From positions 62,001 through 126,000 of the forward strand of contig CAJXQI010000010.1 in the NCBI GenBank assembly GCA_913058395.1: DNA of 64,000 nt, in the 5' to 3' direction. Position numbers and translations under genes: made by a program. Within the stretch, counting starts at the first letter, position 1, and each line of letters opens with the position of its first letter. The notes beneath the pieces were generated by a model that did not search any database, was not told where the DNA came from, and was given only the letters and a program-made list of their open reading frames with translations. Source of the stretch: an uncultured Colwellia sp. (GTDB lineage: Bacteria; Pseudomonadota; Gammaproteobacteria; Enterobacterales; Alteromonadaceae). Positions 19,184-35,352 of this stretch are shown here, in pieces.

Positions 19184-19786
19184 ATGTCGGATTTGAACGT
19201 AATTATTGCCGCAGATATTTTTGGCACTAGCCCCGAGTTTAAAACGTTATGTCAGCAAATATCTTTAGCTGAAGTCGGTTCAGCAGCCACGAATTATCAT
19301 GTCGTGGGCCCATATCAAAGGCAGCCAGATAATTTCTCCTCTGAAAAAAGTGCCTATCAGTATTTTATCGAGCATGTTGGTGTTGAAGCTTATAGCGAAA
19401 AATTACTGTCAATAATAGAAGCTAGCTCTGGGCCTAAGTTACTTATTGGTTTTAGTGTCGGTGGCAGTGCTATTTGGCGCTTAACGCCAAAGTTAGCAAG
19501 CTCTGGCGTTATATCAACTATTTGCTTTTATAGTAGTCAAATTAGGCATATGACTGAAATTGAGACAACCGTACCTTGCCAGTTTGTATTGCCAAACTCA
19601 GAAGAGCATTTTTCGGTTAATGAATTAAAAGCAAAAATGCAAAATAAGCAGCAAGTGAATGTTGAACAGTGTTGTTATCAACATGGTTTTTTAAACAAAT
19701 TATCAAATAATTATAATCAAAGTGGGGCTACACAATATATTAGGAATATTCAAAAATTTATTACTAAAGCCAACTTGTTACTCTGA
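19184..19786 (+). CDS. Small alpha/beta hydrolase, dienelactone-hydrolase-like
   Basis: A 200-residue cytoplasmic protein. The nucleophile elbow G-F-S-V-G-G at about residues 88-93 and a late histidine in Q-H-G-F near 165 fit a compact alpha/beta hydrolase of the dienelactone-hydrolase type. The N-terminal strand V-I-I-A-A-D-I-F-G also resembles that family. The nucleophile appears to be serine rather than the cysteine of true dienelactone hydrolases. Substrate unknown. It is divergent from the YebC-family gene. Confidence 0.7.
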   Translation: MSDLNVIIAADIFGTSPEFKTLCQQISLAEVGSAATNYHVVGPYQRQPDNFSSEKSAYQYFIEHVGVEAYSEKLLSIIEASSGPKLLIGFSVGGSAIWRLTPKLASSGVISTICFYSSQIRHMTEIETTVPCQFVLPNSEEHFSVNELKAKMQNKQQVNVEQCCYQHGFLNKLSNNYNQSGATQYIRNIQKFITKANLLL

Positions 19787-20074: not shown

Positions 20075-21010
20075 TTGTTGCGTCGTTTTAGTTTATTTAT
20101 CATGCTGGCTTTTCATTTTGTTTGGAGCAGCTCCGCTTTTTCTGCAGAATCTGATGATATTGCCATTTTTTATCCTGATGTGGCTGAGCCCTATAAATCC
20201 ATCTATCAGGAAATAATCTCAGGTGCTGAGAATGCCAAAATTACTGATGATCAAAATAGCCAACTTATCGTTTTTACACTTGAAAAAGATTTTGACGTCT
20301 CCCGTATTACTCGTCAATTAAATAACAAAGGTATTAAAAAAGTTATTGTTTTGGGACGAGTGGGACTTAAGTTGGCAAGGGCATTGAAGGATGACTTTAT
20401 TGTTATTTCAGGTGCTTTACCTATCACACCCAATACCCTTTCAGGGATTAGCTTAATTACCGACCCCGAATATTTATTCAAATATTTAACTTTGGTCGCT
20501 CCTAAGGTTGACACGATACATGTTGCTTATAGCAAAGCAAATGATTGGTTAGTTAATTTAGCGAAGTCAGCAGCAATGGCACAAGGTTTTAAACTTGATA
20601 TGCGCAAAGTCGATTCAACTAAGCAGGCCATTGAGTATTATCAACAGTTGTTTACTCGAGGTTTATCTGAGAAAGATGCTATTTGGCTACCTATTGACCG
20701 AGTTTCTTCACAAGATAAAGTGACGTTACCATTTATATTGGAAAAGGCATGGGCTGAAGATATTGTTGTTTTTTCAAGTAAGCCTTCACATGCAAAACGA
20801 GGTGCACTTTTTTCTACATACCCTGACAATTACGGCCTTGGTCAACAACTTTATAAAATGATTCATGAGCATAATGGTGACATTGAAGCGAAACCGTTCT
20901 CAGCCTTAATATCGACATTATTGGCCGTAAACTTGCGAACAGCAGCTCATTTAGGCTTCAAGTATAGTAAAGAGCAGCAAAAAAACTTTCAATTAACTTT
21001 TCCAGAGTAA
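20075..21010 (+). CDS. Periplasmic ABC-type substrate-binding-like protein
   Basis: A 311-residue exported protein with the fold pattern of the ABC_sub_bind family (I-A-I-F-Y-P-D, then K-K-V-I-V-L-G-R-V-G and a second lobe with V-V-F-S-S-K-P-S-H-A-K-R-G-A-L-F-S-T). The signal peptide covers about residues 1-24 and ends S-A-F-S-A. No ABC permease or ATPase is nearby, so it may serve as a ligand sensor for the kinase that follows six bases later. The start is TTG at 20075 or, better spaced from GGGAG at 20067-20071, TTG at 20078. Confidence 0.75.
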   Translation: MLRRFSLFIMLAFHFVWSSSAFSAESDDIAIFYPDVAEPYKSIYQEIISGAENAKITDDQNSQLIVFTLEKDFDVSRITRQLNNKGIKKVIVLGRVGLKLARALKDDFIVISGALPITPNTLSGISLITDPEYLFKYLTLVAPKVDTIHVAYSKANDWLVNLAKSAAMAQGFKLDMRKVDSTKQAIEYYQQLFTRGLSEKDAIWLPIDRVSSQDKVTLPFILEKAWAEDIVVFSSKPSHAKRGALFSTYPDNYGLGQQLYKMIHEHNGDIEAKPFSALISTLLAVNLRTAAHLGFKYSKEQQKNFQLTFPE

Positions 21011-21016
21011 ACATGC

Positions 21017-22567
21017 ATGACAGTAATTAGGTCACTATTTAATTCCAAAGCTAGTTTCAAACAGCAATTATTAATGTTGTTTTTTGCCAGTCTTACTTGC
21101 TTAGCGATAACTACTTCAACTATTACGGCATGGCAAACCAGTATTGAGTTGAGAAAGTCTACAATAGAAACTGGTTTACAAATTTCTAATAATTTAGCTG
21201 ATCGCCTTATTTTAGCGTTACTTACTGCCAGTAAAGAAAATGCCCATGGCGCCATTACTAATACACTAGGTTTTAAGTCTGTTGATAGTATTTCTGTCTA
21301 TAAAGATGATGCAAGTTTACTTGTTTATAACTCAAAAAATGAAAGTAAAGCCTCAGTTTTAGTCCCTAATACAGAATTAACGTCTTCACAGCTTTATCAA
21401 GAAACTGAATTGACATGGACGTTTTTTGCGCCAGTTAAATACATAGAAGAAACTGATGATATGGAGCTAATAGAGCCTGCCGCGAATAGTCAAAAAGAAC
21501 AAATTTTAGGTTATGTTCTAGTGAAATATAACAAACAAGCACTTCATGCTATTCAGCGCTCAATTGTGATTAATAACATTGTTATTGCCGGTGTTTTATC
21601 ACTATTACTTTTGCTATTGATGCTTTGGGTTTTGAATCGTTTAACTACGCCGTTATTGCGTTTGTCGCAAACTATGGCTCAAGCAAGAGATTCAGGCCAT
21701 TACACCAATGCTGACGTTTGTGGGCCTTTAGAAATTCGACAAATGGCCGGTATTTACAACCAAATGATGACAACGTTAGGTAACCAAAACTTAGCATTGG
21801 AAAAAAGCCATGACACTTTAGAAACCGAAGTTACGTCTCGAACAAAAGAGCTTGTTGTTGCACGTGATGCCGCATTAACTGCTAGTCGGCTGAAGTCAGA
21901 ATTTTTAGCGAACATCAGCCATGAATTACGTACGCCGCTACAAGCGATTATTGGCTATACCGATTTAGTGCGTGAAGATCTAGAGCTAGAATGCATGACT
22001 GTTCAAGCTGAAGATCTAAATAAAAGTATTCGCAGTGCTCATGTGTTGTTGGCATTGATCAATAACATACTTGATTTAGCAAAAATAGAAGCCGGTAAAA
22101 TGGAATTGAATGTGAAGTCTGTTGATATAAAACAGTTAATTGACGAGACCATTGAAACCATAAAACCGATGGCAGATGCTAACGAAAATCAATTGTTGAT
22201 AGAAAATACAATTGAACAGAGAATTTTAAATTTAGATCGACAAAAGGTTATGCAAATTTTGTTAAATTTACTGAGCAATGCTTGTAAATTTACTGCTAAA
22301 GGACGTATTACCTTTACCGTTTATAATGATGATAAATTTCTATATCTATCTATTGCCGATACTGGCGTTGGTATCCCCAAAGATAAATTAGAGTTTATCT
22401 TTGATAAATTCACTCAAATTGATGGCAGTCAAACGCGTAAGTTTGAAGGCACTGGTTTAGGTATGGCAATTACCCAAAAATTCTGTGCTCTTATGTTGGG
22501 TGAACTAACAATTGATAGTGAATTGACGGTTGGCACCACAGTAAAAGTGATAATTCCGATAAATTAG
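21017..22567 (+). CDS. Membrane sensor histidine kinase
   Basis: A 516-residue kinase. Membrane helix one spans about residues 17-38, a periplasmic domain of about 135 residues follows, helix two spans about 176-203 (I-V-I-A-G-V-L-S-L-L-L-L-L-L-M), then HAMP, a coiled linker, HisKA with His302 (I-S-H-E-L-R-T-P-L-Q-A-I) and HATPase with N-A-C-K-F, D-T-G-V-G-I-P and G-T-G-L-G-M-A-I. There is no attached receiver and no response regulator gene beside it. It starts six bases after the binding-protein gene, and the TonB receptor follows, so the kinase probably reports occupancy of that uptake route. Confidence 0.85.
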   Translation: MTVIRSLFNSKASFKQQLLMLFFASLTCLAITTSTITAWQTSIELRKSTIETGLQISNNLADRLILALLTASKENAHGAITNTLGFKSVDSISVYKDDASLLVYNSKNESKASVLVPNTELTSSQLYQETELTWTFFAPVKYIEETDDMELIEPAANSQKEQILGYVLVKYNKQALHAIQRSIVINNIVIAGVLSLLLLLLMLWVLNRLTTPLLRLSQTMAQARDSGHYTNADVCGPLEIRQMAGIYNQMMTTLGNQNLALEKSHDTLETEVTSRTKELVVARDAALTASRLKSEFLANISHELRTPLQAIIGYTDLVREDLELECMTVQAEDLNKSIRSAHVLLALINNILDLAKIEAGKMELNVKSVDIKQLIDETIETIKPMADANENQLLIENTIEQRILNLDRQKVMQILLNLLSNACKFTAKGRITFTVYNDDKFLYLSIADTGVGIPKDKLEFIFDKFTQIDGSQTRKFEGTGLGMAITQKFCALMLGELTIDSELTVGTTVKVIIPIN

Positions 22568-22681
22568 TGAATAATTATCTAATCTAAACAAATGTTTATA
22601 TTGAAAAATATTGATGATTCACTACACTTAAGAATTAAATTTTTAAGTTTTTTAACCACTAACGTAGACAAGGTGTTTTGC

Positions 22682-24808
22682 ATGCTATTAGCCCGTAAAG
22701 TTATCAATTGTTTAATTTTTTTAGCTTTGTCGAATAGTACTTTTGATGCTTTTGCTGATAATAACGATTTTGCTGAATTTGAAGAGTCACTAGCAGACTT
22801 TTACGGTGATGAAGAGTTTATTTCTTTAGCTACTGGTAGTAAAAAACTGATTAAAAAAGCTCCGTCTGTAGCATCTGTTATTACTGCAGAAGAAATTCGC
22901 AATATGGGAGCAAGAAATCTCTCTGAAGTATTAGATACTGTACCTGGGTTACATGTTTCAAAAAGTGGTCAGAACATGGCGCCAGAATTTTGGTTTCGCG
23001 GTATTTCAACCACGTTTACGCCACAAACGTTATTTATGGTTAATGGTACGTCAACGAAAAGTGTTGTACGGGGGGATAATCATACTATTTGGGGCGAATA
23101 TCCAATTCATGCCATTGAACGGATTGAAATTATTCGCGGTCCTGGTTCAGCGCTGTATGGTGCTGATGCTTTTTCTGGTGTTATTAATATTATTACCAAA
23201 AAAGCTGATAAAGGCCGTGCTAATGAGATCGGCGCTAAGTTTGGACATTTTAATACCGTCAATGCTTGGCTTAATGGTCAATTTGAGATCGGCAGTTGGA
23301 GGTTTGCGGCAAATTTTGAGTATTTAGGTAGTGATGGTTATGAGGGAATGGTTGATGAAGATGCCCAAAGTGCTATAGATCAAGCATTTAAAGCTACTGG
23401 TGCTCCGTTCGCCTCTTTGGCACCTGGTTATTTAAATGTCGGCTTTGATGCACTTGATATTTGGCTTTCCGCTGAGAATGACTTATTTAATATTGATATT
23501 GGCTTTCAAGAAAGAAGTGACGTTGGTACTGGTCAAGGGGCAACTGAAGTTTTAGATACCAATGGCCGGTTTGGTAGTTACAAAAAAATAGTAAGTGCGT
23601 CTTTAAAAGAGCAGAGCATTTCAAATCAATTATTTATTAGCGGTAAAGTTAGCTATTACGGCTCAAGCCAAGAAATAGAAGAAGACTTACTTTTGTTTCC
23701 AAAAGGTGCATTTTCAGGGGCTTTCCCTGATGGTTTAATTGGTAACCCTGGTTGGGAAGAGGAAACGACACATATTGAGTTAAACGCTAGATATTCGGGG
23801 TTTGACAGCACAGAGATAAGTTTTGGTACTGGCTATGAGCGACAAAACCTTTATCAAGTGACAGAAAGTAAAAACTTCTATGCCGACTTTAGTCCAAGGC
23901 CAAATGGTGTTGAAGATGTGTCTGATACTGGTGAAGTATTTATGCCTGAAGCTGACCGAGAAAGTTATTTTATATATGTCCAAGGGGTAATGCAGTTGGC
24001 ACCTGATTGGGAGCTAACAGCAGGTGGACGATTTGATGACTACACCGATATTGGTTCTACAACTAACCCTAGGCTTGCGCTTGTTTGGTCGACAAGTTTA
24101 AATTTAACGACAAAATTTTTGTATGGACGAGCATTCAGAGCACCATCATTTGCTGAGTTATTGACTTTAAATAACCCTGTTGCCTTAGGGAACCCTAATT
24201 TAACCCCTGAAAATATTGATACAATAGAATTAGCGTTTAACTATCGTTACTCACCTGAACTTTCAATAGATTTTAATGTTTATCAATACGAAATCGAAGA
24301 TTTAATTACTTTTGTACAAAATGCTAATAGTGTTACTGCGACTGCGCAAAACCAAGGTCAAAGAACCGGTCGCGGTTTTGAGGCGCATTTAATTTATCAC
24401 TATCAAGAAAACCTAGTTTTTCATAGTAACTTTGCTTATGTAAAGGCTGAAGATGACATTGCCAAGAGTAACGTTGGAGAACACCCTAGTTTGCAAGCTT
24501 ATGTGCGAGCTGAGTGGCAAATAAGCGAGCGGTTGAAGTTAAATAGCCAAGTCAGCTATATTGCAAACCGTTCAAGAGTACCTGGCGATGTACGTGCAGA
24601 GTTAGATGATTATACCTTGGTCAATGTGGCTGCTAACTATTCATTTCCTACCAATGGAGTGGTTGTAGAGCTTAATGTTGTGAATTTGTTTGATGATGAT
24701 ATTAGAGAGCCTAGTTCAGCCAATGTCACTGCAGGGCAAATTAATATACCAAACGACTTGCCTCAAGCTGATCGGAGTGTTTATTTGGCGGTTAGTAAAA
24801 CCTTTTAA
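22682..24808 (+). CDS. TonB-dependent outer-membrane receptor
   Basis: Gated outer-membrane channel for a scarce ligand such as a siderophore, haem or cobalamin. I start it at ATG 22682 (708 residues): ACAAGG precedes it and the signal peptide M-L-L-A-R-K-V-I-N-C-L-I-F-L-A-L begins there. An upstream in-frame ATG at 22592 would bury the signal. The plug domain runs from about residue 58 (V-I-T-A-E-E-I-R-N-M-G-A-R-N-L) through G-P-G-S-A-L-Y-G-A-D-A-F-S-G-V-I-N-I-I-T. The barrel ends Y-L-A-V-S-K-T-F with a terminal aromatic. The ligand is not evident. It forms the third gene of the binding-protein/kinase unit. Confidence 0.88.
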   Translation: MLLARKVINCLIFLALSNSTFDAFADNNDFAEFEESLADFYGDEEFISLATGSKKLIKKAPSVASVITAEEIRNMGARNLSEVLDTVPGLHVSKSGQNMAPEFWFRGISTTFTPQTLFMVNGTSTKSVVRGDNHTIWGEYPIHAIERIEIIRGPGSALYGADAFSGVINIITKKADKGRANEIGAKFGHFNTVNAWLNGQFEIGSWRFAANFEYLGSDGYEGMVDEDAQSAIDQAFKATGAPFASLAPGYLNVGFDALDIWLSAENDLFNIDIGFQERSDVGTGQGATEVLDTNGRFGSYKKIVSASLKEQSISNQLFISGKVSYYGSSQEIEEDLLLFPKGAFSGAFPDGLIGNPGWEEETTHIELNARYSGFDSTEISFGTGYERQNLYQVTESKNFYADFSPRPNGVEDVSDTGEVFMPEADRESYFIYVQGVMQLAPDWELTAGGRFDDYTDIGSTTNPRLALVWSTSLNLTTKFLYGRAFRAPSFAELLTLNNPVALGNPNLTPENIDTIELAFNYRYSPELSIDFNVYQYEIEDLITFVQNANSVTATAQNQGQRTGRGFEAHLIYHYQENLVFHSNFAYVKAEDDIAKSNVGEHPSLQAYVRAEWQISERLKLNSQVSYIANRSRVPGDVRAELDDYTLVNVAANYSFPTNGVVVELNVVNLFDDDIREPSSANVTAGQINIPNDLPQADRSVYLAVSKTF

Positions 24809-25012: not shown

Positions 25013-25807
25013 CTAACACCATTCTCTTTTTGCTGTGCCTGTATATGTCACTCTATCGCAGCGAATAGGTAAAAAACTACCTTCAGGATTTTCTTTTGCC
25101 TCGATATAACATGGCGGCATACCAGCCAAAACGAGTGGTGTTGTGAACAAATGAAATTCTTCAGGAGTGAAGCCTAAATCAGCACACAATGCACAATAAA
25201 GTGCGGCAACATTCATACTTAGCCCTTTTGACTTTTTCAAGTGCTGTGCAAGCTCTAGTGCTATTTTTATATGCTCTCCAGAGCTAAAGCCTAATTCATG
25301 GGCAAAATTGACGACATGCGGTATACGTTCATCAGAACTCGCTAACGGTCGTCCATACCCATATATCACCTTATGTTTTAAGAGCTCTTTAGCTGCAAAA
25401 TCAGAAATTGAAATTCCTTGCTTTTGCGCATGTGCAGCACGTTGAAAGAAATCAATCCCAACTTTTAAAGGTTTGCCACCATAGATTGATGCTTCAAATA
25501 CGGTTATGCCTATGCTTAATGCTAAAGAAGCTGTGCTTCTTGAGGAGGCAGCAAGCGCGGTAATATGGTTGGGCCAAATGGCTTTATCAGGATAACTGGT
25601 GCTTACCCAAATAAAATTCAGCAGTTTTAATTCATTTTCGGTAAATTCTCGACCAGTGATACCAAAGGCAAATAATTCGATCCATTGACTGTTTTTAAGT
25701 TGATGGTGTAAATCTTTACCTCGGTAAACAACTCGCTCGCCTAAGAAACCTTTGCCCATTCTCGTAATGATAGTATCTTCGTGGTTTAGCTTTATTTGCT
25801 GGCTCAT
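25013..25807 (-). CDS. Citrate-synthase-fold protein B, catalytic residues replaced
   Basis: A 264-residue protein matching the two-domain citrate synthase fold from the large-domain helices to the C-terminus (I-R-C-D-R-V-T-Y-T-G near 248). The landmark motifs are altered: the usual H-G-G is Y-G-G-K-P-L at 109-114, the G-F-G-H-x-V-Y histidine is arginine in G-Y-G-R-P-L at 150-155, and the N-x-D-F-Y aspartate region reads G-L-S-M-N-V at 195-200. I therefore doubt ordinary citrate synthase chemistry. The start overlaps the stop of protein A by ATGA and AAAGGA precedes it, so the two are coupled and may form a heteromer. CitE-type or citryl-CoA-lyase-like labels are possible alternatives. Confidence 0.75.
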   Translation of the reverse strand: MSQQIKLNHEDTIITRMGKGFLGERVVYRGKDLHHQLKNSQWIELFAFGITGREFTENELKLLNFIWVSTSYPDKAIWPNHITALAASSRSTASLALSIGITVFEASIYGGKPLKVGIDFFQRAAHAQKQGISISDFAAKELLKHKVIYGYGRPLASSDERIPHVVNFAHELGFSSGEHIKIALELAQHLKKSKGLSMNVAALYCALCADLGFTPEEFHLFTTPLVLAGMPPCYIEAKENPEGSFLPIRCDRVTYTGTAKREWC

Positions 25808-26652
25808 AAGTCGAATCCTTTTACAGTTGGTAAGCCCAGTGAGCCTGGGTCATCAGTTAATATGGTATTTTGTCCAAAGAATGGAAACTTCTTCCAGCCT
25901 AGTTGCTCTTGCTCCAAGGCATGTACTGCCGCGCCTGGTAAACGTAGGATTAAGAACAGCATTTCGGCTTGTTTTGCGTTTAGTCCCAAATCGAACATCG
26001 CGCTGGCAATTACGCCAGTCATACTTAGTGGATATTGGATAAGTTGTTCGAATTGTTCTCTGTGCTGTTTTAGCCAAGCTATTGCTCCGTTTGGACAAAT
26101 AGTGGCTAACTGCTCAAGTGTTTGCAAGATCGGGGTCGGGCACGTTTCACCGTTAGGTTCAAAACCTGGTGCGTGTTCGTATTCTGACCATATATCAACA
26201 CGGTCATAATCTTGGTTTGGTTTACTTAAGAAGTTTTCCCACTCAGTTAGCTTGCAGCCACTTTTTTGCCATTGTTGAACTAAGGTGAAAATTTCTCTAG
26301 CACCACCATATTGACCTGCACCTACACCTAATGCAGCAATTAATGATGCGGCAGCGGTAGAGCCGCCAACTCCAGCATTCATTGCTGCGCGAATACTTTC
26401 GTCACGCATACCAGGATTTGCAATGGCAATAGCTATTTTTTCCAATAATTGTGCTTGAGCCGAGTTTGGGCGCTCTCCAACAAACAATAAATACCAGTAT
26501 TCACTTAAGCTAGCTTTGGGAAGGATGTCTTGATAGACGTTATAGCCATAGCAATAGCTACTTTTTGCAGTGAATGGGTTATTGCTTTCCGGCTCTTCCA
26601 GCCAAATACTTGATTGATAGTTTGGTTTATTTACTTTTGTAGAATTAGACAT
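25804..26652 (-). CDS. Citrate-synthase-fold protein A, catalytic residues replaced
   Basis: A 282-residue citrate synthase relative. The conserved C-terminal helix motif L-P-G-A-A-V-H-A-L-E-Q at 238-248 is a clear match to the family's V-P-G-W-x-A-H-x-L-E-Q. The region G-A-G-Q-Y-G-G-A-R-E at 111-120 stands where G-P-L-H-G-G-A is usual, so the first histidine is tyrosine. A-P-G-F-E-P-N at 161-167 replaces G-F-G-H-x-V-Y, and Y-P-L-S-M-T-G at 207-213 replaces N-x-D-F-Y-S-G. All three catalytic positions appear lost. AGGAGG precedes the start, three bases beyond the ThDP gene's stop. It is not simply half of one broken gene, since protein B repeats the same landmarks. Confidence 0.77.
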   Translation of the reverse strand: MSNSTKVNKPNYQSSIWLEEPESNNPFTAKSSYCYGYNVYQDILPKASLSEYWYLLFVGERPNSAQAQLLEKIAIAIANPGMRDESIRAAMNAGVGGSTAAASLIAALGVGAGQYGGAREIFTLVQQWQKSGCKLTEWENFLSKPNQDYDRVDIWSEYEHAPGFEPNGETCPTPILQTLEQLATICPNGAIAWLKQHREQFEQLIQYPLSMTGVIASAMFDLGLNAKQAEMLFLILRLPGAAVHALEQEQLGWKKFPFFGQNTILTDDPGSLGLPTVKGFDL

Positions 26653-26655
26653 CTT

Positions 26656-28452
26656 TTATCCTCCTGGAGTTGCTGATTGATTTGCTAAGCCTTTTACGCG
26701 TTGTCCCATTGGCGGTATCTCTGTTGGGTCAATATGTAAATCAATCATAGTTGGAGCTTGTTTACTGCCAAGGCGATGCCAATTGATGTTCATTAACTCA
26801 TCAACTGTTTTAATTTGAATACCTTCAATGCCCATGGCTTCTGCCATTTTTGCGTAGTTAATTATCGGTAGTTCAAAGCCAATTTGTTCTGCTCCACCAA
26901 GTTTTTGGCCATGTTTGACCATACCAAGAGCGCTGTCATTGAAAACAACATAGATGACAGGTAATTGATGTTGTAAAGCCGTTGTTATTTCTTGGCCTGC
27001 CATTAGGTAGCTGCCGTCACCTGTAATGCAAACACTGGGCTTTCCACTGCCGATACAATTACCAACAGCAGCGCCAATTGCCCACCCCATGGAGCCAAAA
27101 CCCATGGCAATATGATAATGACCAAGCGTATTACTTGTCTGGTGATAATGAGTAAACCAAGCCCAAACATTGCCTGCATCGAAATGTAAACGATATTCAG
27201 CAGGAATGTGCTTAGCAAACTCAACAACCACGCGCTGTGGCTTTAATGGCAATGCATCTGAGTAGCAACTTTTAGGCAAGTTGAGTTGAACTTGTGGACC
27301 GCAAATAGCTTTTTGTTCGAGAAAGTGTTGCTTAGTAATTTTTGATGAACCCCAAGATTTCCCCCACTTTATTCCTTGCTTGATATTGCTATTTAGCTGT
27401 TGGAAGATAGCGCTTAAATCGCCGCAAATGTGATGTTTTGCCATTGGCGTTCGCGCGAAGTGTTCGTTGATTTCATCAATATGAACTAACTTTTCACTTA
27501 ATAAACTATTACTCCAACCATTAGTGCCCAATTCCGATATTTGTGTGCCTATAGCAATGATGGTGTCAACTGAATCGTCAAGTAATGCATTTTCTGCGCT
27601 TTCATGGCCCGCGAAACCGAATACGCCATGGTACTGTGGATGAAAACAATCTATCCAACGCTTGGCTGCAGGCCCTGTTGTAATAGCCGCATTTGTTAAC
27701 TCTGCAAATTCAATGATTGCATTTATTGCCTTGCCACAGTCTCGACCAAGAAAAAGCGCGATTCGCTTGGAGCTCGTTAAAATGTCAACTAACTTTGAAA
27801 TTGCCAGGTCATCAACCAATGTTATTTCATTCATGAGATTATTAGGATTGAAAGTTGGAAGTTTAGTGGCTTGTTCTCGTAAGATATCTGAAGGAATGCT
27901 GATATGAGCAGGGCCGTTAGGGGCTCGAAAAGCTGACATAATTGCTGCTACTAACTTGGTGTTAATCTGCTCTGCATGAGAGATAAGGGTGTTATAAGTT
28001 GTGCAATAACGAAAAATACCAACGGTATCTATTGCAGTGCAAGATGATTCTTGCAGGGCGTTTTTGCCAAACTTAGGTAATGGTGTTTGCGCTGTTATAA
28101 CTAACATTGGAATATTATCAGCATAAGCGGATGCAACCCCAGTAAGTAAGTTAGTTGAACCAGGGCCTGTTGTGGCGCAGCAAACACCAAGCTTACCGGT
28201 TTCTCTTGCATAGCCTTCAGCCATAAATGCTGCACCAGATTCATGTCGAGCGACTATTACTTTTGGTCCTCCGTGTGGTTGGTTTCTGGCAATAGCATTA
28301 TAAAGTGGCTCTATTGCGCCGCCGGGAACACTAAAAATATACTCTACTTTTAGTGCTTTTAGGTAGGCAACGATTAAGTCTGCATTGTCCCAAGATAGTT
28401 GGGAATTGAAGTTATCAGGGGTGTTGCTTGATGGTGAAATTGACTGAGTCAT
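26656..28452 (-). CDS. Acetolactate-synthase-like ThDP-dependent enzyme
   Basis: A 598-residue thiamine-diphosphate enzyme of the acetolactate synthase / benzoylformate decarboxylase superfamily. The N-terminal pyrimidine-binding domain has the catalytic glutamate Glu71 in A-R-H-E-S-G-A-A-F-M-A-E-G-Y. The C-terminal PP domain has the ThDP/Mg motif G-D-G-S-Y-L-M-A-G followed about 27 residues later by N-D-S-A-L-G-M. No regulatory ilvN-type subunit adjoins; instead two citrate-synthase-fold proteins follow within the same operon. That context argues against branched-chain amino acid synthesis. The product could be an acetohydroxy acid, a decarboxylated aldehyde or a CoA-linked product. Confidence 0.82.
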   Translation of the reverse strand: MTQSISPSSNTPDNFNSQLSWDNADLIVAYLKALKVEYIFSVPGGAIEPLYNAIARNQPHGGPKVIVARHESGAAFMAEGYARETGKLGVCCATTGPGSTNLLTGVASAYADNIPMLVITAQTPLPKFGKNALQESSCTAIDTVGIFRYCTTYNTLISHAEQINTKLVAAIMSAFRAPNGPAHISIPSDILREQATKLPTFNPNNLMNEITLVDDLAISKLVDILTSSKRIALFLGRDCGKAINAIIEFAELTNAAITTGPAAKRWIDCFHPQYHGVFGFAGHESAENALLDDSVDTIIAIGTQISELGTNGWSNSLLSEKLVHIDEINEHFARTPMAKHHICGDLSAIFQQLNSNIKQGIKWGKSWGSSKITKQHFLEQKAICGPQVQLNLPKSCYSDALPLKPQRVVVEFAKHIPAEYRLHFDAGNVWAWFTHYHQTSNTLGHYHIAMGFGSMGWAIGAAVGNCIGSGKPSVCITGDGSYLMAGQEITTALQHQLPVIYVVFNDSALGMVKHGQKLGGAEQIGFELPIINYAKMAEAMGIEGIQIKTVDELMNINWHRLGSKQAPTMIDLHIDPTEIPPMGQRVKGLANQSATPGG

Positions 28453-28535: not shown

Positions 28536-31052
28536 TTAACTCTTTGCGCAGCAGACCTCTTTCATTCGAGGTGAAAGCTCTTCAATGGGAATAGGTTTGC
28601 CTAAATGATAGCCTTGAGCAAAAGTAACGCCTATTTCTCCAAGTATTATTAGGGTTTCTTCGTTTTCGACAAACTCGGCAACAGTGCTTTTTCCTAGTGC
28701 TGATGCAATTTCATAAATAGATTTAACTAGTGCGAGGTCAACACTGTTTGTTGCTAAATCAACAACAAAAGAACCGTCTATTTTTACGGATTGCGCAGGG
28801 ATTTGTTTTAAATAATTAAAAGTACTAAAACCAGTACCAAAATCATCTATCGAGAACTCACAGCCCAACTTACCAATGCGAGATATAATTTTTTTAGTTT
28901 CACCGATATTACTTAAACTAGCACTTTCGGTTAATTCAAAAATTATTCGTTCTGCATCGACTTTATTAACCTCTATTGCTTCCTGGATGATAGGTACTAG
29001 TTTTTCATCACTAAAGCCTTGTGCAGATAAATTGATAGCTATTTTATGTAACTCAGGGTGTTCTGCTAGGTATTTAATCGCCTTAGCAATAACTTGTCTA
29101 TCTAATAGCTTCATACCGCCACCACGCTCAAGTGCTGGAATGAACTCTCCGGGAGGAACAATTTTACCATCGAGTTTGAGTCTAACTAACGCTTCATAAT
29201 AGGCGACTTTTTTAGTGGCAATTTCTACCACTGGCTGAAAATATAAAACTAAATTATCATCAACAACTGCTTGGTGTAGTTTTCTTACCCACTCTAAACT
29301 TAGCTGTAGTTCTTTACTATGAATATCATTCTGATCGTAGATATGTGCCATATTTCGACCTTGCTTTTTAGCAGCATAAAGCGCGATATCAGCTTGCTTC
29401 ATGTACTCTTCAGCGCCTTCTTCATGGCCGTCAATTTCTGAAATACCAATTGAGCAATTAACTTTGAAAGTTTCGCCTTCAATTTTACATTGATACTCAT
29501 CAAGCAGTTTACAAATATTATCTGCAAGTTTTAGTGCTATTTTTTGATTAGTATTAGGTAAAAGTAAAGCAAATTCATCACCACCAATACGGGCAAAAAA
29601 ATCAGCTTTACGTAACCGATTACTAATCAGGGTTGATATATTTCTCAAAACACTGTCACCATGATGGTGACCCGCGGTATCGTTAATCACTTTAAAGTGA
29701 TCTAAATCTAGGTAAAGCAATGCATGTGGACCACTTCCTCGCATTGCTGTAGCTGCATATTGATTTAGTTCAGTTTCAAAATAATGACGATTGAATAATC
29801 CTGTTAAGCCGTCGTGCATGGCCAAATACTCTAAATCACGCTGGGCTTTTTTTCTTGAAGTTATATCATCAATGGTTCCAGAAATACGATAACTTTCATT
29901 GTCATTACAAAGAGTAAGCTCCAAACGCGCTTCAACCCATAAGTCATCATTTATTCTGTTTTTCAGTTTAAATTCAAAATGTAAGGAGTTAACTTTACCG
30001 GTTAAAATAGGTTGTAATTGCTCGCTAGTATTTAAATTCATGAATTCAGGAGGTTCAATGTATTCATCAAGTTTTGAAAGCAGAGATTCATGAACTTTAA
30101 AACCCGTTAGCTTTTCCCAAGCTTTATTAATAAAGGTTATTTTTCCTGTTATATCAAGCTCAATAACAACACTGCCTAACTGGTCTAATAATAATTGGTG
30201 GGCATCGTGTATTTGCTTATATTCAGATTGGCTTTGCTGCAAAGATTTAACTTTATTCGCAAACTGCTCATTGCTGATCATAAAATCTTCACGGCGGGTT
30301 GCAGTTTCGCACACTCGCCTTAATTGCTCTGCTCGAAAGGGTTTTGTGACAAAGTCGGCGGCGCCATTTAGCATTAATTCTTCAGCCAATTCCATCGTGT
30401 GATTGGCAGTCATAATAACAACAGATTGATCAGGCTTTTCTTGCATTATTTGATCAAGAACTTGATTTCCAGAAAGCCCCGGCAGCATGACATCGAGCAA
30501 TACTAAGGCATAATCGTTTTTACGCCATAAATTTAAACCAGACTCGCCGTCTACAGCGGTATCAATAGTGAAGCGGCTGGCTAAAATTCTTTCAACTAAA
30601 TGACGAGTGTCAGGGTTGTCTTCTACTACTAAAACAGAGGTCTTTGCCATCTCTTGCAGTGTTATAAGCTCATTTTCGTTAACTATATCTAAAAGCTTAG
30701 CGTGGTCGCTGTATGGAACTAAGCCATTGATGTCAAATTCTCTCGCGGTGACATTTGCAATATGTTCACACCAAATATCGGCAACAATGACAAATTTTGT
30801 TTCTGCAGCGCACTTAAGTACACCCGAACGTATCAACCTAGCCAAACGCCAACCGTCGAAGTCATCTAAATGAATATTACTTATTACAAAGTCTACCTGT
30901 TCATTCTTTAATATTTTTATTGCTTCTTTGGTGTTTGAGGCCGTGATGATTTTGTATGAAGTACCATTACTTAAGAGTTCGTTTAAAACATTCAAATGCT
31001 CTAAATCAGTGTTTAACAATAATAGCTGCTTTAACACAGTTGGAAATGTCAT
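28536..31052 (-). CDS. REC-REC-PAS-GGDEF-EAL cyclic-di-GMP signalling protein
   Basis: An 838-residue cytoplasmic protein. A degenerate receiver spans about 1-125, a complete receiver follows (V-L-V-V-E-D-N-P-D near 142, phospho-acceptor in L-L-D-V-M-L-P near 185, K-P-F near 235), then a PAS domain, a GGDEF domain with A-R-I-G-G-D-E-F and an R-K-A-D inhibitory site five residues earlier, and an EAL domain with Y-E-A-L-V-R and D-D-F-G-T-G-F. Both catalytic signatures look intact, so it could make and degrade c-di-GMP. Its cognate kinase is not adjacent. It lies upstream of the ThDP operon on the same strand with an 83-base gap. Confidence 0.9.
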   Translation of the reverse strand: MTFPTVLKQLLLLNTDLEHLNVLNELLSNGTSYKIITASNTKEAIKILKNEQVDFVISNIHLDDFDGWRLARLIRSGVLKCAAETKFVIVADIWCEHIANVTAREFDINGLVPYSDHAKLLDIVNENELITLQEMAKTSVLVVEDNPDTRHLVERILASRFTIDTAVDGESGLNLWRKNDYALVLLDVMLPGLSGNQVLDQIMQEKPDQSVVIMTANHTMELAEELMLNGAADFVTKPFRAEQLRRVCETATRREDFMISNEQFANKVKSLQQSQSEYKQIHDAHQLLLDQLGSVVIELDITGKITFINKAWEKLTGFKVHESLLSKLDEYIEPPEFMNLNTSEQLQPILTGKVNSLHFEFKLKNRINDDLWVEARLELTLCNDNESYRISGTIDDITSRKKAQRDLEYLAMHDGLTGLFNRHYFETELNQYAATAMRGSGPHALLYLDLDHFKVINDTAGHHHGDSVLRNISTLISNRLRKADFFARIGGDEFALLLPNTNQKIALKLADNICKLLDEYQCKIEGETFKVNCSIGISEIDGHEEGAEEYMKQADIALYAAKKQGRNMAHIYDQNDIHSKELQLSLEWVRKLHQAVVDDNLVLYFQPVVEIATKKVAYYEALVRLKLDGKIVPPGEFIPALERGGGMKLLDRQVIAKAIKYLAEHPELHKIAINLSAQGFSDEKLVPIIQEAIEVNKVDAERIIFELTESASLSNIGETKKIISRIGKLGCEFSIDDFGTGFSTFNYLKQIPAQSVKIDGSFVVDLATNSVDLALVKSIYEIASALGKSTVAEFVENEETLIILGEIGVTFAQGYHLGKPIPIEELSPRMKEVCCAKS

Positions 31053-33369: not shown

Positions 33370-35352
33370 ATGGTAATGGAACCACTTTATCTAGCTATTG
33401 GAATTGGCGTACTTTTTGTCTTTTCACTGTTAATCATGATCGCGAAGTTTTACAACAAAGTAGAACAAGGCCAAGCACTTATCATTAACAAATTGCGTGC
33501 AGAGCCTGAAATTAGCACAACGGGCGGAATGGTTATCCCTGTTATTCATAAAAAAGAAATTATGGATATTTCAACAAAACGCATGATGCTTGAACGTAAA
33601 GGCCGTTCTGGACTTATCTGCCAAGACAATATTCGTGCTGACATTATTATTACCTTTTATATACGGGTAAATGAAACCAAAGAAGATATTCTTCGCGTTG
33701 CTAAGCAAGTGGGGTGTGAGCGTTCATCTTATCCTGAAACTTTGCAGGAGTTATTTGAAGCAAAATTCTCCGAAGCGCTTAAAACTGTTGGTAAACAACT
33801 AAATTTTACCGAGTTATTCACTCAACGCGATAGATTCCGTGACAAGATTAAGGAAGTTATCGGCCAAGACTTATCGGGTTATGTACTAGAAGATGTTGCG
33901 ATTGATTTCTTAGAACAAACATCGATTCATGATCTAGACCCAAATAATATTATGGATTCAGAAGGTATTCGACGCATTACTGAGTTAACAGCTCAACAAA
34001 GTGTAGAAACTAATGACTTAAAGCGACAAGAAGAAATTCGCATCAAACGACAAGATATTGAAGCAGAAGAAAAACAATTAGAACTTGAACGACAACTAGC
34101 CGATGCAAAAGCAAAGCAAGGACGCGAAATAGCTACCGTTCAAGCGCGTGAAGAAGCTGAAACAGCAAAAATTGTTGAAGAAGAGCGTTGTAAATCTGAG
34201 CAAGCAAGAATAGAAACAGAACAAGTTATTGCTGTTGCTGAAGAAAATAAACAACGAGAAGCGGACATTGCTGAACAAAACCGTTTCAGAGCGGTCGCGA
34301 TTGAAGAAGAAAAAGTGACACGTGCACGCCAAATTGAAGAAATTGATCGTCAAAAAGAAGTAGAAGTGCTACGCATTGATAAAGAAAAAGTTTTAGAAGT
34401 TGAGCGTAAAAATATCGCCGAAGTACAACGAGAGCGAATTGCCGTAGAAAAAAATGTCGCGGAAGAAGAAGAGCGCATTAAAGACTTACGCGTAGTATCT
34501 GAAGCTAACCGTCAAAAAGACGAGCTTGTAATTAAAGCTAAAGGTGAAGCGGAAGAAGCATTGGTGAAAGACATTGAATCGGCAAAAGCACAAGAACAAG
34601 CTGCAGAACATACCGCAAGAAAAATGCAAACTATTGCTGAAGCTGAATTAAAAGCGGCAAGTAAACAAGCAGAATCTAAGAAGATATTAGCAGAAGGTAA
34701 CCAAGCGGAAGCCGCGTCACAAGGGCTAGCTGATGCACAAATTACTTTAGCGCAAGCTGACGCTCATGAAAGACAAGGTGAAGCTGAAGCGAAAGCACTT
34801 GAACTTAAATTAACCGCAGAAGCTAAAGGTATTGAAGAAAAAGCCATGGCTGAAGCAACAGGCTTACGTGAAAAACAAGACGTGCTTAACGCCATGTCTG
34901 AGCAAGCACGAGAGTTTGAAATATTTGGTTTACGCTTAGGTCAAGAACGAGAATTAACCTTAGCTAAATTAGATAACAGCGTTGATTTAGCTGAAAAACA
35001 AGCTGGCGTGCTAGCAACAGCGCTTAGTGAAGCCAATATTAATATTATGGGTGGAGACGGTGAATTCCTGAATCAGTTTATGAAGTCTATTACTGTCGGT
35101 AAATCTATTGATGGTTTAGTCAATGAAAGTGAAACTGTACAAAAATTATTTAAAGACCATTTAGCTGGTGATCGCAACATTATGGATGATCTTGGTGGTG
35201 TACTTGCTGGCGCTTCGCAAACCAGTGAAACCATGAAGAACTTTAATATGGCCAAATTACTCTCAACTTTAAATAACGCTGACGACACGCAAAAAGGTGC
35301 GTTGGCAAGTTTATTAAATTTGGGAAATCAAGGCACATCAAACGTAAAGTAA
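33370..35352 (+). CDS. Flotillin family protein, YqiK type
   Basis: A 660-residue membrane scaffold protein. One N-terminal helix (about residues 5-26) is followed by a Band7/SPFH domain (Q-G-Q-A-L-I-I-N-K-L near 34 through I-D-F-L-E-Q-T near 180), then a very long charged coiled coil rich in E, A, K and Q from about 210 to 520, and a C-terminal flotillin region. This matches YqiK. AGAGGAAG provides the ribosome binding site. It lies 75 bases after the YqiJ-like gene and 85 bases before the AAA+ ATPase, suggesting one operon that builds a membrane microdomain with an ATPase. Confidence 0.88.
   Translation: MVMEPLYLAIGIGVLFVFSLLIMIAKFYNKVEQGQALIINKLRAEPEISTTGGMVIPVIHKKEIMDISTKRMMLERKGRSGLICQDNIRADIIITFYIRVNETKEDILRVAKQVGCERSSYPETLQELFEAKFSEALKTVGKQLNFTELFTQRDRFRDKIKEVIGQDLSGYVLEDVAIDFLEQTSIHDLDPNNIMDSEGIRRITELTAQQSVETNDLKRQEEIRIKRQDIEAEEKQLELERQLADAKAKQGREIATVQAREEAETAKIVEEERCKSEQARIETEQVIAVAEENKQREADIAEQNRFRAVAIEEEKVTRARQIEEIDRQKEVEVLRIDKEKVLEVERKNIAEVQRERIAVEKNVAEEEERIKDLRVVSEANRQKDELVIKAKGEAEEALVKDIESAKAQEQAAEHTARKMQTIAEAELKAASKQAESKKILAEGNQAEAASQGLADAQITLAQADAHERQGEAEAKALELKLTAEAKGIEEKAMAEATGLREKQDVLNAMSEQAREFEIFGLRLGQERELTLAKLDNSVDLAEKQAGVLATALSEANINIMGGDGEFLNQFMKSITVGKSIDGLVNESETVQKLFKDHLAGDRNIMDDLGGVLAGASQTSETMKNFNMAKLLSTLNNADDTQKGALASLLNLGNQGTSNVK

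Follow-up and report, generated by a model that had tools for sequence, protein, structure and literature searches.

A seven-gene module links a ThDP enzyme and two citrate-synthase-fold proteins lacking the catalytic triad to a TonB receptor and a c-di-GMP regulator

LuxP-LuxQ and TorT-TorS are pairs of a periplasmic binding protein and a histidine kinase, and GltB-GtrS is reportedly another. ScyA, an enzyme dependent on thiamine diphosphate (ThDP), couples indole-3-pyruvate with 4-hydroxyphenylpyruvate to a labile product that is processed by its partner ScyC, and the Nostoc scytonemin cluster likewise pairs ScyA with TyrA, according to the sections available to us of PMC4870267; the products of BbmA and CsmA were not found in the literature searched. 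Within the periplasmic-binding-protein clan, SBP_bac_3 alone has been studied in cyclic di-GMP (c-di-GMP) networks, as stated in the accessible part of a 2022 review (PMC8846402). Here we describe a seven-gene locus in a stretch of 64,000 nucleotides (the window) from an uncultured Colwellia sp., contig CAJXQI010000010.1, positions 62,001 to 126,000 of the forward strand. A ThDP enzyme (T) and two proteins of the citryl-CoA lyase fold (A and B) are encoded there together with a TonB-dependent receptor (TBDR), a sensor histidine kinase (HK), a binding protein (PBP) and a response regulator (RR). We propose that the module makes a small molecule, recaptures it and signals via c-di-GMP, and we give this proposal an even chance. 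The seven genes, in window coordinates, are as follows.

26656..28452, minus strand: T, ThDP-dependent enzyme of the acetolactate synthase/ScyA/BbmA/CsmA group, 598 residues (Pfam, PDB and family profile)
25804..26652, minus strand: A, degenerate citryl-CoA-lyase-fold protein, 282 residues (AlphaFold and Foldseek, profile to 6hxp, residue counts)
25013..25807, minus strand: B, degenerate citryl-CoA-lyase-fold protein, 264 residues (AlphaFold and Foldseek, profile to 6hxp, residue counts)
22592..24808, plus strand: TBDR, TonB-dependent outer-membrane receptor, 738 residues (Pfam Plug and TonB_dep_Rec)
21017..22567, plus strand: HK, sCache_4-HAMP-HisKA-HATPase sensor histidine kinase, 516 residues (Pfam; HAMP below the gathering cutoff)
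20075..21010, plus strand: PBP, periplasmic ABC_sub_bind-type binding protein adjoining HK, 311 residues (Pfam)
28536..31052, minus strand: RR, REC-REC-PAS-GGDEF-EAL response regulator, 838 residues (Pfam)

T, A and B had been read as one minus-strand operon in a first-pass annotation of this DNA, and the operon is confirmed: T and A are separated by 3 bases, A and B overlap by ATGA, and an AGGAGG-type site precedes A. That annotation recognised T-A-B, but it missed TBDR, PBP, HK and the GGDEF-EAL regulator, which flank its interval on both sides, as well as the exchange of A, B and the receptor as a cassette.

The module recurs far outside the window. A was seen in 36 of the 196 genomes of the family sample, its own genome included and one match (G002) being weak; the wide loci comprise 34 other family genomes and the window. 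All 35 carry B (in G073, locus L034, as two pieces split over two frames), and all but the short contig of G032 carry T. Sets of 34 family, 8 order, 40 class and 80 named loci, the last being the best 80 of 159 confirmed relatives, were scored at fixed bit thresholds. The named set shares members with the others (e.g. in Catenovulum, Colwellia, Pleionea and Aliikangiella), and their counts are therefore not independent of one another; some loci are truncated at contig ends, and HK and RR belong to general families whose thresholds may let in other members. In the 34 family loci, A and B were both found in 34, T, TBDR and HK in 33 each (HK at no less than 200 bits), PBP in 32 and RR in 28 (at least 300 bits), with all seven genes in 28. 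The 8 order loci each hold A, B, T and TBDR, while HK, PBP and RR are present in 7 each. For the 40 class loci the counts are 37 for A, 40 for B, 31 for T, 31 for TBDR, 25 for HK, 26 for PBP and 24 for RR, and 15 loci have all seven; for the best 80 of the 159 named relatives they are 78 for A, 80 for B, 66 for T, 75 for TBDR, 48 for HK, 40 for PBP and 54 for RR, and 32 have all seven. Carriers of B among these best 80 include Pleionea, Aliikangiella, Pseudoalteromonas, Colwellia, Catenovulum, Neptuniibacter, Teredinibacter and Cellvibrio, further Gallionellaceae, Desulfuromonadales, Desulfobulbaceae and Candidatus Electrothrix, and single metagenome-assembled genomes labelled Nitrospirae, Chloroflexi and Polarisedimenticolaceae. 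With a threshold of 200 bits, B occurs in 41 of the 369 class genomes sampled (own genome included). Weak A matches in G002 (E 1e-4) and G440 (E 5e-4) were excluded from the architecture counts as not A, and weak B matches in G058, G016, G916 and G907 were retrieved and set aside. No description of the module was found in the open-licence literature searched, which is not proof of absence.

T and the A/B pair go together. A stands directly before B on the same strand in 42 of 42 family and order loci, in agreement with the earlier suggestion that the two act as a pair. T scores in the family sample are bimodal: 35 of the 196 genomes reach at least 597 bits, and the next score is 326 bits, in the range of ordinary acetolactate-synthase-like enzymes. 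B likewise reaches at least 300 bits in 35 of the 196, and T and B occur together in 34 of the 36 genomes having either (hypergeometric p ~1e-35, relatedness ignored). The two exceptions are G032 (80% complete), with A/B on a 4.9-kb contig and no strong T found, and G040 (L217), whose T, nearly complete (profile 5-557 of 590), adjoins a short frame that combines an A start with a B end. Nine class loci have B without T on the stretch; 8 of their genomes were searched (G746 was left out), and T scores at least 660 bits elsewhere in 7 of these, the match holding one in-frame stop in G750 and G754. No T was found elsewhere in the genome of G682, and three of the 8 (G690, G750, G732) showed no A next to this B. 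At L186 and L187 (G750, G732), A is absent or a trace beside B, and both genomes have the T match elsewhere; a transposase-like fragment, recognised by eye, lies within the L186 interval. A natural T-A fusion is found in G591 (L189:6875-9535), where a single frame of 886 residues holds T at 14-594 and A at 608-871, and B starts at the end of this frame. Both the co-occurrence and the fusion uphold the earlier view that A and B go with the ThDP enzyme. Homologues of A and B serving as ordinary citrate synthases without the ThDP gene were also sought in the 8 class genomes searched for T and were not found. T lies on the strand opposite to A/B in 11 of 33 family loci. Some modules have decayed: besides L217 and L034 (above), this holds for L218 (G588), where TBDR, B and T are each in pieces in one locus, whereas the scores of A, HK, PBP and RR are normal. 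Three genomes of one genus (G697, G809 and G904) give B matches with one in-frame stop inside the match.

The ThDP enzyme T is intact. It carries all three Pfam TPP domains (TPP_enzyme N, M and C), and Glu71, Asp479, Gly480 and Asn505, which represent the catalytic Glu and the GDG...N motif, are invariant in all 35 aligned rows. The best PDB matches of T are BbmA (E 6e-89) and CsmA (5e-74); the family profile scores 400 bits to BbmA versus 290 bits to the best acetolactate synthase. T stays below the equivalog cutoffs of both acetolactate synthase (292.7 versus 538) and the ScyA-related family (270 versus 1000). Its own genome holds another acetolactate-synthase-like match of 317 bits.

Judged from their predicted models, A and B share the citryl-CoA lyase fold. 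The AlphaFold models have a mean confidence (pLDDT) of 89.4 for A and 92.0 for B, and the first Foldseek match of both is 6hxp (E 2.9e-8 for A and 7.2e-11 for B), with TM-scores, normalised to the query, of 0.64 and 0.81, respectively. Profile comparison to 6hxp gives E 6e-25 for A and 3e-17 for B. Family models respond weakly: with Pfam Citrate_synt (cutoff 27), B scores 39.4 bits and A 17.5 bits, and the best scores to the NCBIfam citryl-CoA lyase, 52.7 and 54.8 bits, stay far under its cutoff of 245.

Where the superfamily has its catalytic His, His and Asp, as assigned by profile alignment to 6hxp, A has Tyr115, Pro166 and Thr212, and B has Tyr109, Arg153 (or a deleted His; the alignment is ambiguous by one residue) and Ala201. 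The first-pass annotation was therefore right that the triad is lost in both window proteins, but the residues at the Asp site are Thr and Ala rather than Ser/Met. The L-S-M string that it took for a shared change at this site is rejected as a misalignment: the two strings are two residues out of register, and the relatives shown do not conserve them. Residues were counted in relatives, over 42 rows of B and 43 rows of A. In B, position 109 is Tyr or Phe and position 153 is Arg in 42 of 42 rows, position 201 is Gly or Ala in 35 of 42, and Asp never occurs there. In A, the first triad column is very mixed (Tyr 9/43, His 1/43, the latter in L084), the second is never His, with a His one residue further on in 13 of 43, and the third is Thr in 22 of 43 and Asp in none. 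B has 17 invariant columns in its 42 rows, many of them polar, including Asp159-Glu160-Arg161, Asn199, Tyr255, Gly257 and Arg261; therefore, the triad loss is not decay, as had also been proposed earlier. In A, Gly36, Arg83, Leu104, Gly117 and Pro239 are invariant. The loss is thus an old one; B shows it cleanly, A less so for the second His. B looks like the catalytic partner of the pair, and a heteromer of A and B is plausible.

Do the seven genes share one history? Pairwise distances were compared in 33 complete loci, loci without any one of the seven genes at the thresholds being omitted. T, HK, PBP and RR are intercorrelated at 0.88-0.95, and A with B at 0.95. In contrast, A or B correlates with the T/HK/PBP/RR block at 0.55-0.60, and the receptor is intermediate, with 0.75 to A and B and 0.65-0.70 to the other genes. 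One A/B group, type I (the window, L033, L035, L036, L037, L078 and L081), forms a single clade in the trees of B (100/100), A (100) and TBDR (100). The type of A/B changes once on the A and TBDR trees and five times on those of T, PBP, HK and RR; quick trees were used for all genes except B, and the RR tree carries a long-branch warning. Type I as a single clade is rejected on the T, PBP, HK and RR trees (p-AU of the approximately unbiased test 4.4e-6, 1.5e-5, 1e-71 and 1e-50), values that are too small by some margin since the group was defined after the identities had been seen. The simplest account of these trees is that A, B and the receptor have been exchanged repeatedly as one contiguous block, with RR-T and HK-PBP conserved on its two sides. 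An exchange of modifying enzymes and outer-membrane receptor as a unit fits a matched product and receptor.

T-A-B and the receiver genes can be separated, more clearly so for the receiver half. PBP, HK, TBDR and RR are intact in G155 (complete; L227:5625-13134) and G092 (85% complete; L228:3613-11037), and profile searches of both whole genomes gave no match to A or B and no strong match to T. In G155, RR and TBDR are 147 bases apart at the place occupied by A-B and T in two genomes of the same genus (G109 and G174). A contig of G101 that is cut off at TBDR encodes this receptor, HK and PBP, and neither A, B nor a strong T is present in G101; G046 retains PBP-HK-RR only.

The sensor can be swapped with a c-di-GMP domain retained. 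L047 has a YfiR-HK with REC-HD-GYP, L096 has YfiR with CHASE8-GGDEF-EAL, and L097 has an HK-GGDEF-EAL fusion. In L091, L096, L098 and L100, A-B-TBDR is present with T fragments or no T, and a YfiR-like cluster takes the place of PBP-HK-RR together with a GGDEF-EAL membrane enzyme, which was annotated in L096; T lies elsewhere in the genomes matched to L091 and L096 (G625 and G754). The c-di-GMP output of the module may not be universal, because two annotated signalling proteins of L149 have no c-di-GMP domain.

Neighbouring genes were clustered over 125 loci, not all clusters being annotated; those present in over a quarter of the loci are A/B, TBDR, T, RR, PBP and HK. Clusters in at least 10 loci are the same ones and a short-chain dehydrogenase/reductase (SDR). 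The SDR (28 of 125 loci, often though not always beside A/B) was considered as a core part and rejected, SDRs being common. An Asn-synthase-type amidotransferase lies directly 3′ of B in 6 loci (L039, L060, L082, L083, L093 and L139; one organism is counted twice and one member is annotated), and amidation of the module product by it is possible. A sulfotransferase cluster occurs in 4 loci (one annotated), and single O-methyltransferase, condensation-domain-like and MFS genes adjoin some modules; such tailoring-type neighbours hint at a product that is built. A chorismate mutase/prephenate dehydrogenase gene lies beside the module in L047 (12951-14096; 245 bits, cutoff 273), another TyrA-like gene being present elsewhere in that genome. 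PBP itself scores 26.1 bits to Pfam ABC_sub_bind (cutoff 25.9) and 33.7 bits to NCBIfam TrpX, far under the cutoff of 390. The L047 gene and the faint TrpX similarity hint at an aromatic substrate for T. In the window, a scan found 34 promoter-like sites versus 37.7 in shuffles and 13 terminator-like sites versus 8.9, which were not used as evidence; a flotillin-like protein of 660 residues, recognised by eye at 33370-35352 (plus strand), is unrelated to the module.

How could these genes work together? The genes, their folds, the triad loss, the genome-wide linkage of T, A and B, one T-A fusion, the receiver-only genomes and the exchange of A-B-receptor as a unit were all shown computationally. 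T, A and B are the predicted synthesis genes, and they are linked to a dedicated receptor and sensor, with all seven genes in 28 of 34 family loci and matched histories of A, B and TBDR. Given what is known of its family, T would condense two 2-oxo acids, which are probably aromatic, in an acyloin-type reaction that yields a labile 2-hydroxy-3-oxo acid. In pig citrate synthase, the Arg of the Asp-x-Arg motif contacts a carboxylate. The direct product of a T-type enzyme would be an α-hydroxy carboxylate like citrate, which is the sort of ligand handled by the citrate-synthase fold, and B keeps the motif Arg; we therefore propose that A and B hold and convert the product of T. The pair would bind this citrate-like compound, convert it and fix the final product, with B as the catalytic member. 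The product would leave the cell, and the matched TonB receptor would bring it into the periplasm. PBP and HK may then relay the ligand information to the GGDEF-EAL regulator and change c-di-GMP. The module may even represent a new class of chemical signalling, in which T and A/B make a diffusible molecule, the A/B type determines its variants, the co-exchanged receptor reads them, some genomes are sender-receivers and others receivers only, and c-di-GMP is controlled across Gammaproteobacteria, Desulfobacterota and beyond; we rate this reading at somewhat less than an even chance.

Several observations weigh against the proposal. A, B and TBDR are adjacent, and one recombination tract could carry all three without any lock-and-key relation. 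PBP tracks T, HK and RR and not A/B (5 changes), whereas a direct ligand receptor should co-vary with A/B. T-A-B is present in G655 (99% complete) and G870 (79%), which have no such receptor at E 1e-60, and the TBDR subfamily reaches at least 780 bits in at least 5 of the 161 genomes without strong B, a lower bound because 5 candidates per genome were scored. Behind the aromatic substrate stand a weak similarity and one genome (L047), and no recurrent exporter was found among the neighbour clusters of the 125 loci. To these may be added a Fur-like site and catabolic neighbours, which bear on the alternatives below.

A metallophore, a nutrient sensor or another extracellular compound would keep most of the genomics. 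For a metallophore or other scavenging ligand, T-A-B would make a chelating α-hydroxy ketone or acid, the TonB receptor would import the metal complex, and the two-component system would sense metal status. The nearest solved relatives of TBDR are consistent with this, being CirA (the colicin I receptor), PirA and BtuB (CirA and BtuB mainly via the plug), and pyoverdine-type systems too exchange their synthesis genes together with a matched receptor. A weak match to a Fur-like 15-mer (3 mismatches) at 19705-19719 overlaps a promoter-like site where the preceding gene ends, 356 bases before PBP, and the window holds 15 such matches versus 8.0 expected, a number reached in 1 of 100 shuffles. However, no 19-mer Fur box within 3 mismatches was found in the window and no 15-mer in the B-TBDR or T-RR gaps, and Fur-box metal regulation of the module is possible though not supported by these scans. 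Moreover, no inner-membrane importer or metal reductase recurs among the clusters shared by over a quarter of the 125 loci, and the output of the module is a c-di-GMP enzyme. Taken together, we consider a metallophore fairly unlikely. It is also conceivable that the receptor and sensor detect an outside nutrient, which T-A-B degrade by a benzaldehyde-lyase-like T and lyase-like A/B. TonB receptors also import nutrients, and the receiver-only genomes can be read as sensing without degrading. Genes judged by eye to be an enoyl-CoA hydratase, a hydroxyisobutyrate dehydrogenase and an acyl-CoA dehydrogenase flank the module in related genomes: valine-catabolism-like genes (hydroxyisobutyrate dehydrogenase, enoyl-CoA hydratase and SDR) in the related L036, L037 and L062-L064, and fatty- or amino-acid-catabolism-like neighbours, again by eye, in Aliikangiella loci. 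Such neighbours are nevertheless restricted to 5 or 6 of the 125 loci per cluster, the accessory genes near A/B appear biosynthetic, and the A/B type swaps with the receptor and not with T, which would be odd for a single degradative route. Degradation of an outside compound is thus rather improbable.

The two remaining alternatives concern A and B themselves. If they were non-catalytic subunits or activators of T, replacing IlvN, T alone would make the product; the loss of the triad in both proteins and the T-A fusion of L189 would suit such a role. Against it, the 17 invariant columns of B include many polar residues, A/B have been exchanged at least 5 times under T when a structural subunit should co-evolve with its enzyme, and T frequently lies away from A/B, with opposite strands in a third of the family loci (11/33); we give this idea little credence. 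In the first-pass annotation, the A/B heteromer was to act with the ThDP enzyme by handing over or accepting a 2-keto acid or CoA thioester, and the citryl-CoA lyase fold is in keeping with this. A and B of the window have lost the catalytic residues for CoA-ester chemistry, and no CoA ligase or thioesterase was seen among the clusters in at least 10 loci, of which not every one was annotated. Nothing found points to a CoA product or acceptor, and this hand-over is highly improbable.

Should the proposal of a made, recaptured and sensed molecule be true, it would add a widespread signal system (B in 41/369 class genomes) for which synthase, receptor and output can already be named; it would also extend the citrate-synthase fold to a new chemistry and be a case of a TonB receptor serving signal specificity. 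The ligand question could then be addressed directly via three small genes. Even if the product is a metallophore, neither the enzyme pair nor the swappable cassette of A, B and receptor was found described in the literature searched.

Compared with 6hxp, the citryl-CoA lyase of Hydrogenobacter thermophilus, and with the citrate synthase superfamily, A and B have the same fold and length, and B retains the Asp-x-Arg of the second motif and the Y-x-G-x-x-x-R tail; they differ in being two separate, co-occurring genes, with the triad gone in both window proteins. T resembles the ScyA/BbmA/CsmA group, its family profile being closer to BbmA and CsmA than to any acetolactate synthase in the PDB, and ScyA with ScyC, in the sections available of PMC4870267, is a precedent for a ThDP enzyme with a partner. 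Unlike the scytonemin enzymes, T is accompanied by the A/B pair and a receptor-sensor half. No ScyB- or ScyC-like genes were seen among the annotated module neighbours, for which no aimed profile search was made. The module is also reminiscent of the α-hydroxyketone quorum-sensing systems CqsA/CqsS and LqsA/LqsS, in which a dedicated synthase goes with a histidine kinase, plus a regulator in Lqs, and here too the product is possibly an α-hydroxy ketone (PMC3376566, PMC3285556, in the portions accessible). In contrast, CqsA and LqsA are pyridoxal phosphate (PLP) enzymes using acyl-CoA, whereas the synthase candidate of the module is a ThDP enzyme; the regulators are different, and the same portions of the two papers describe no TonB receptor or binding protein (PMC3376566, PMC3285556). 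No PLP-dependent CqsA-type synthase was found among the clusters in at least 10 of the 125 loci. As in LuxP-LuxQ, TorT-TorS and, reportedly, GltB-GtrS, where a binding protein works with a kinase, PBP and HK are encoded together; different from these pairs, the module adds a TonB receptor, and its output is a GGDEF-EAL protein.

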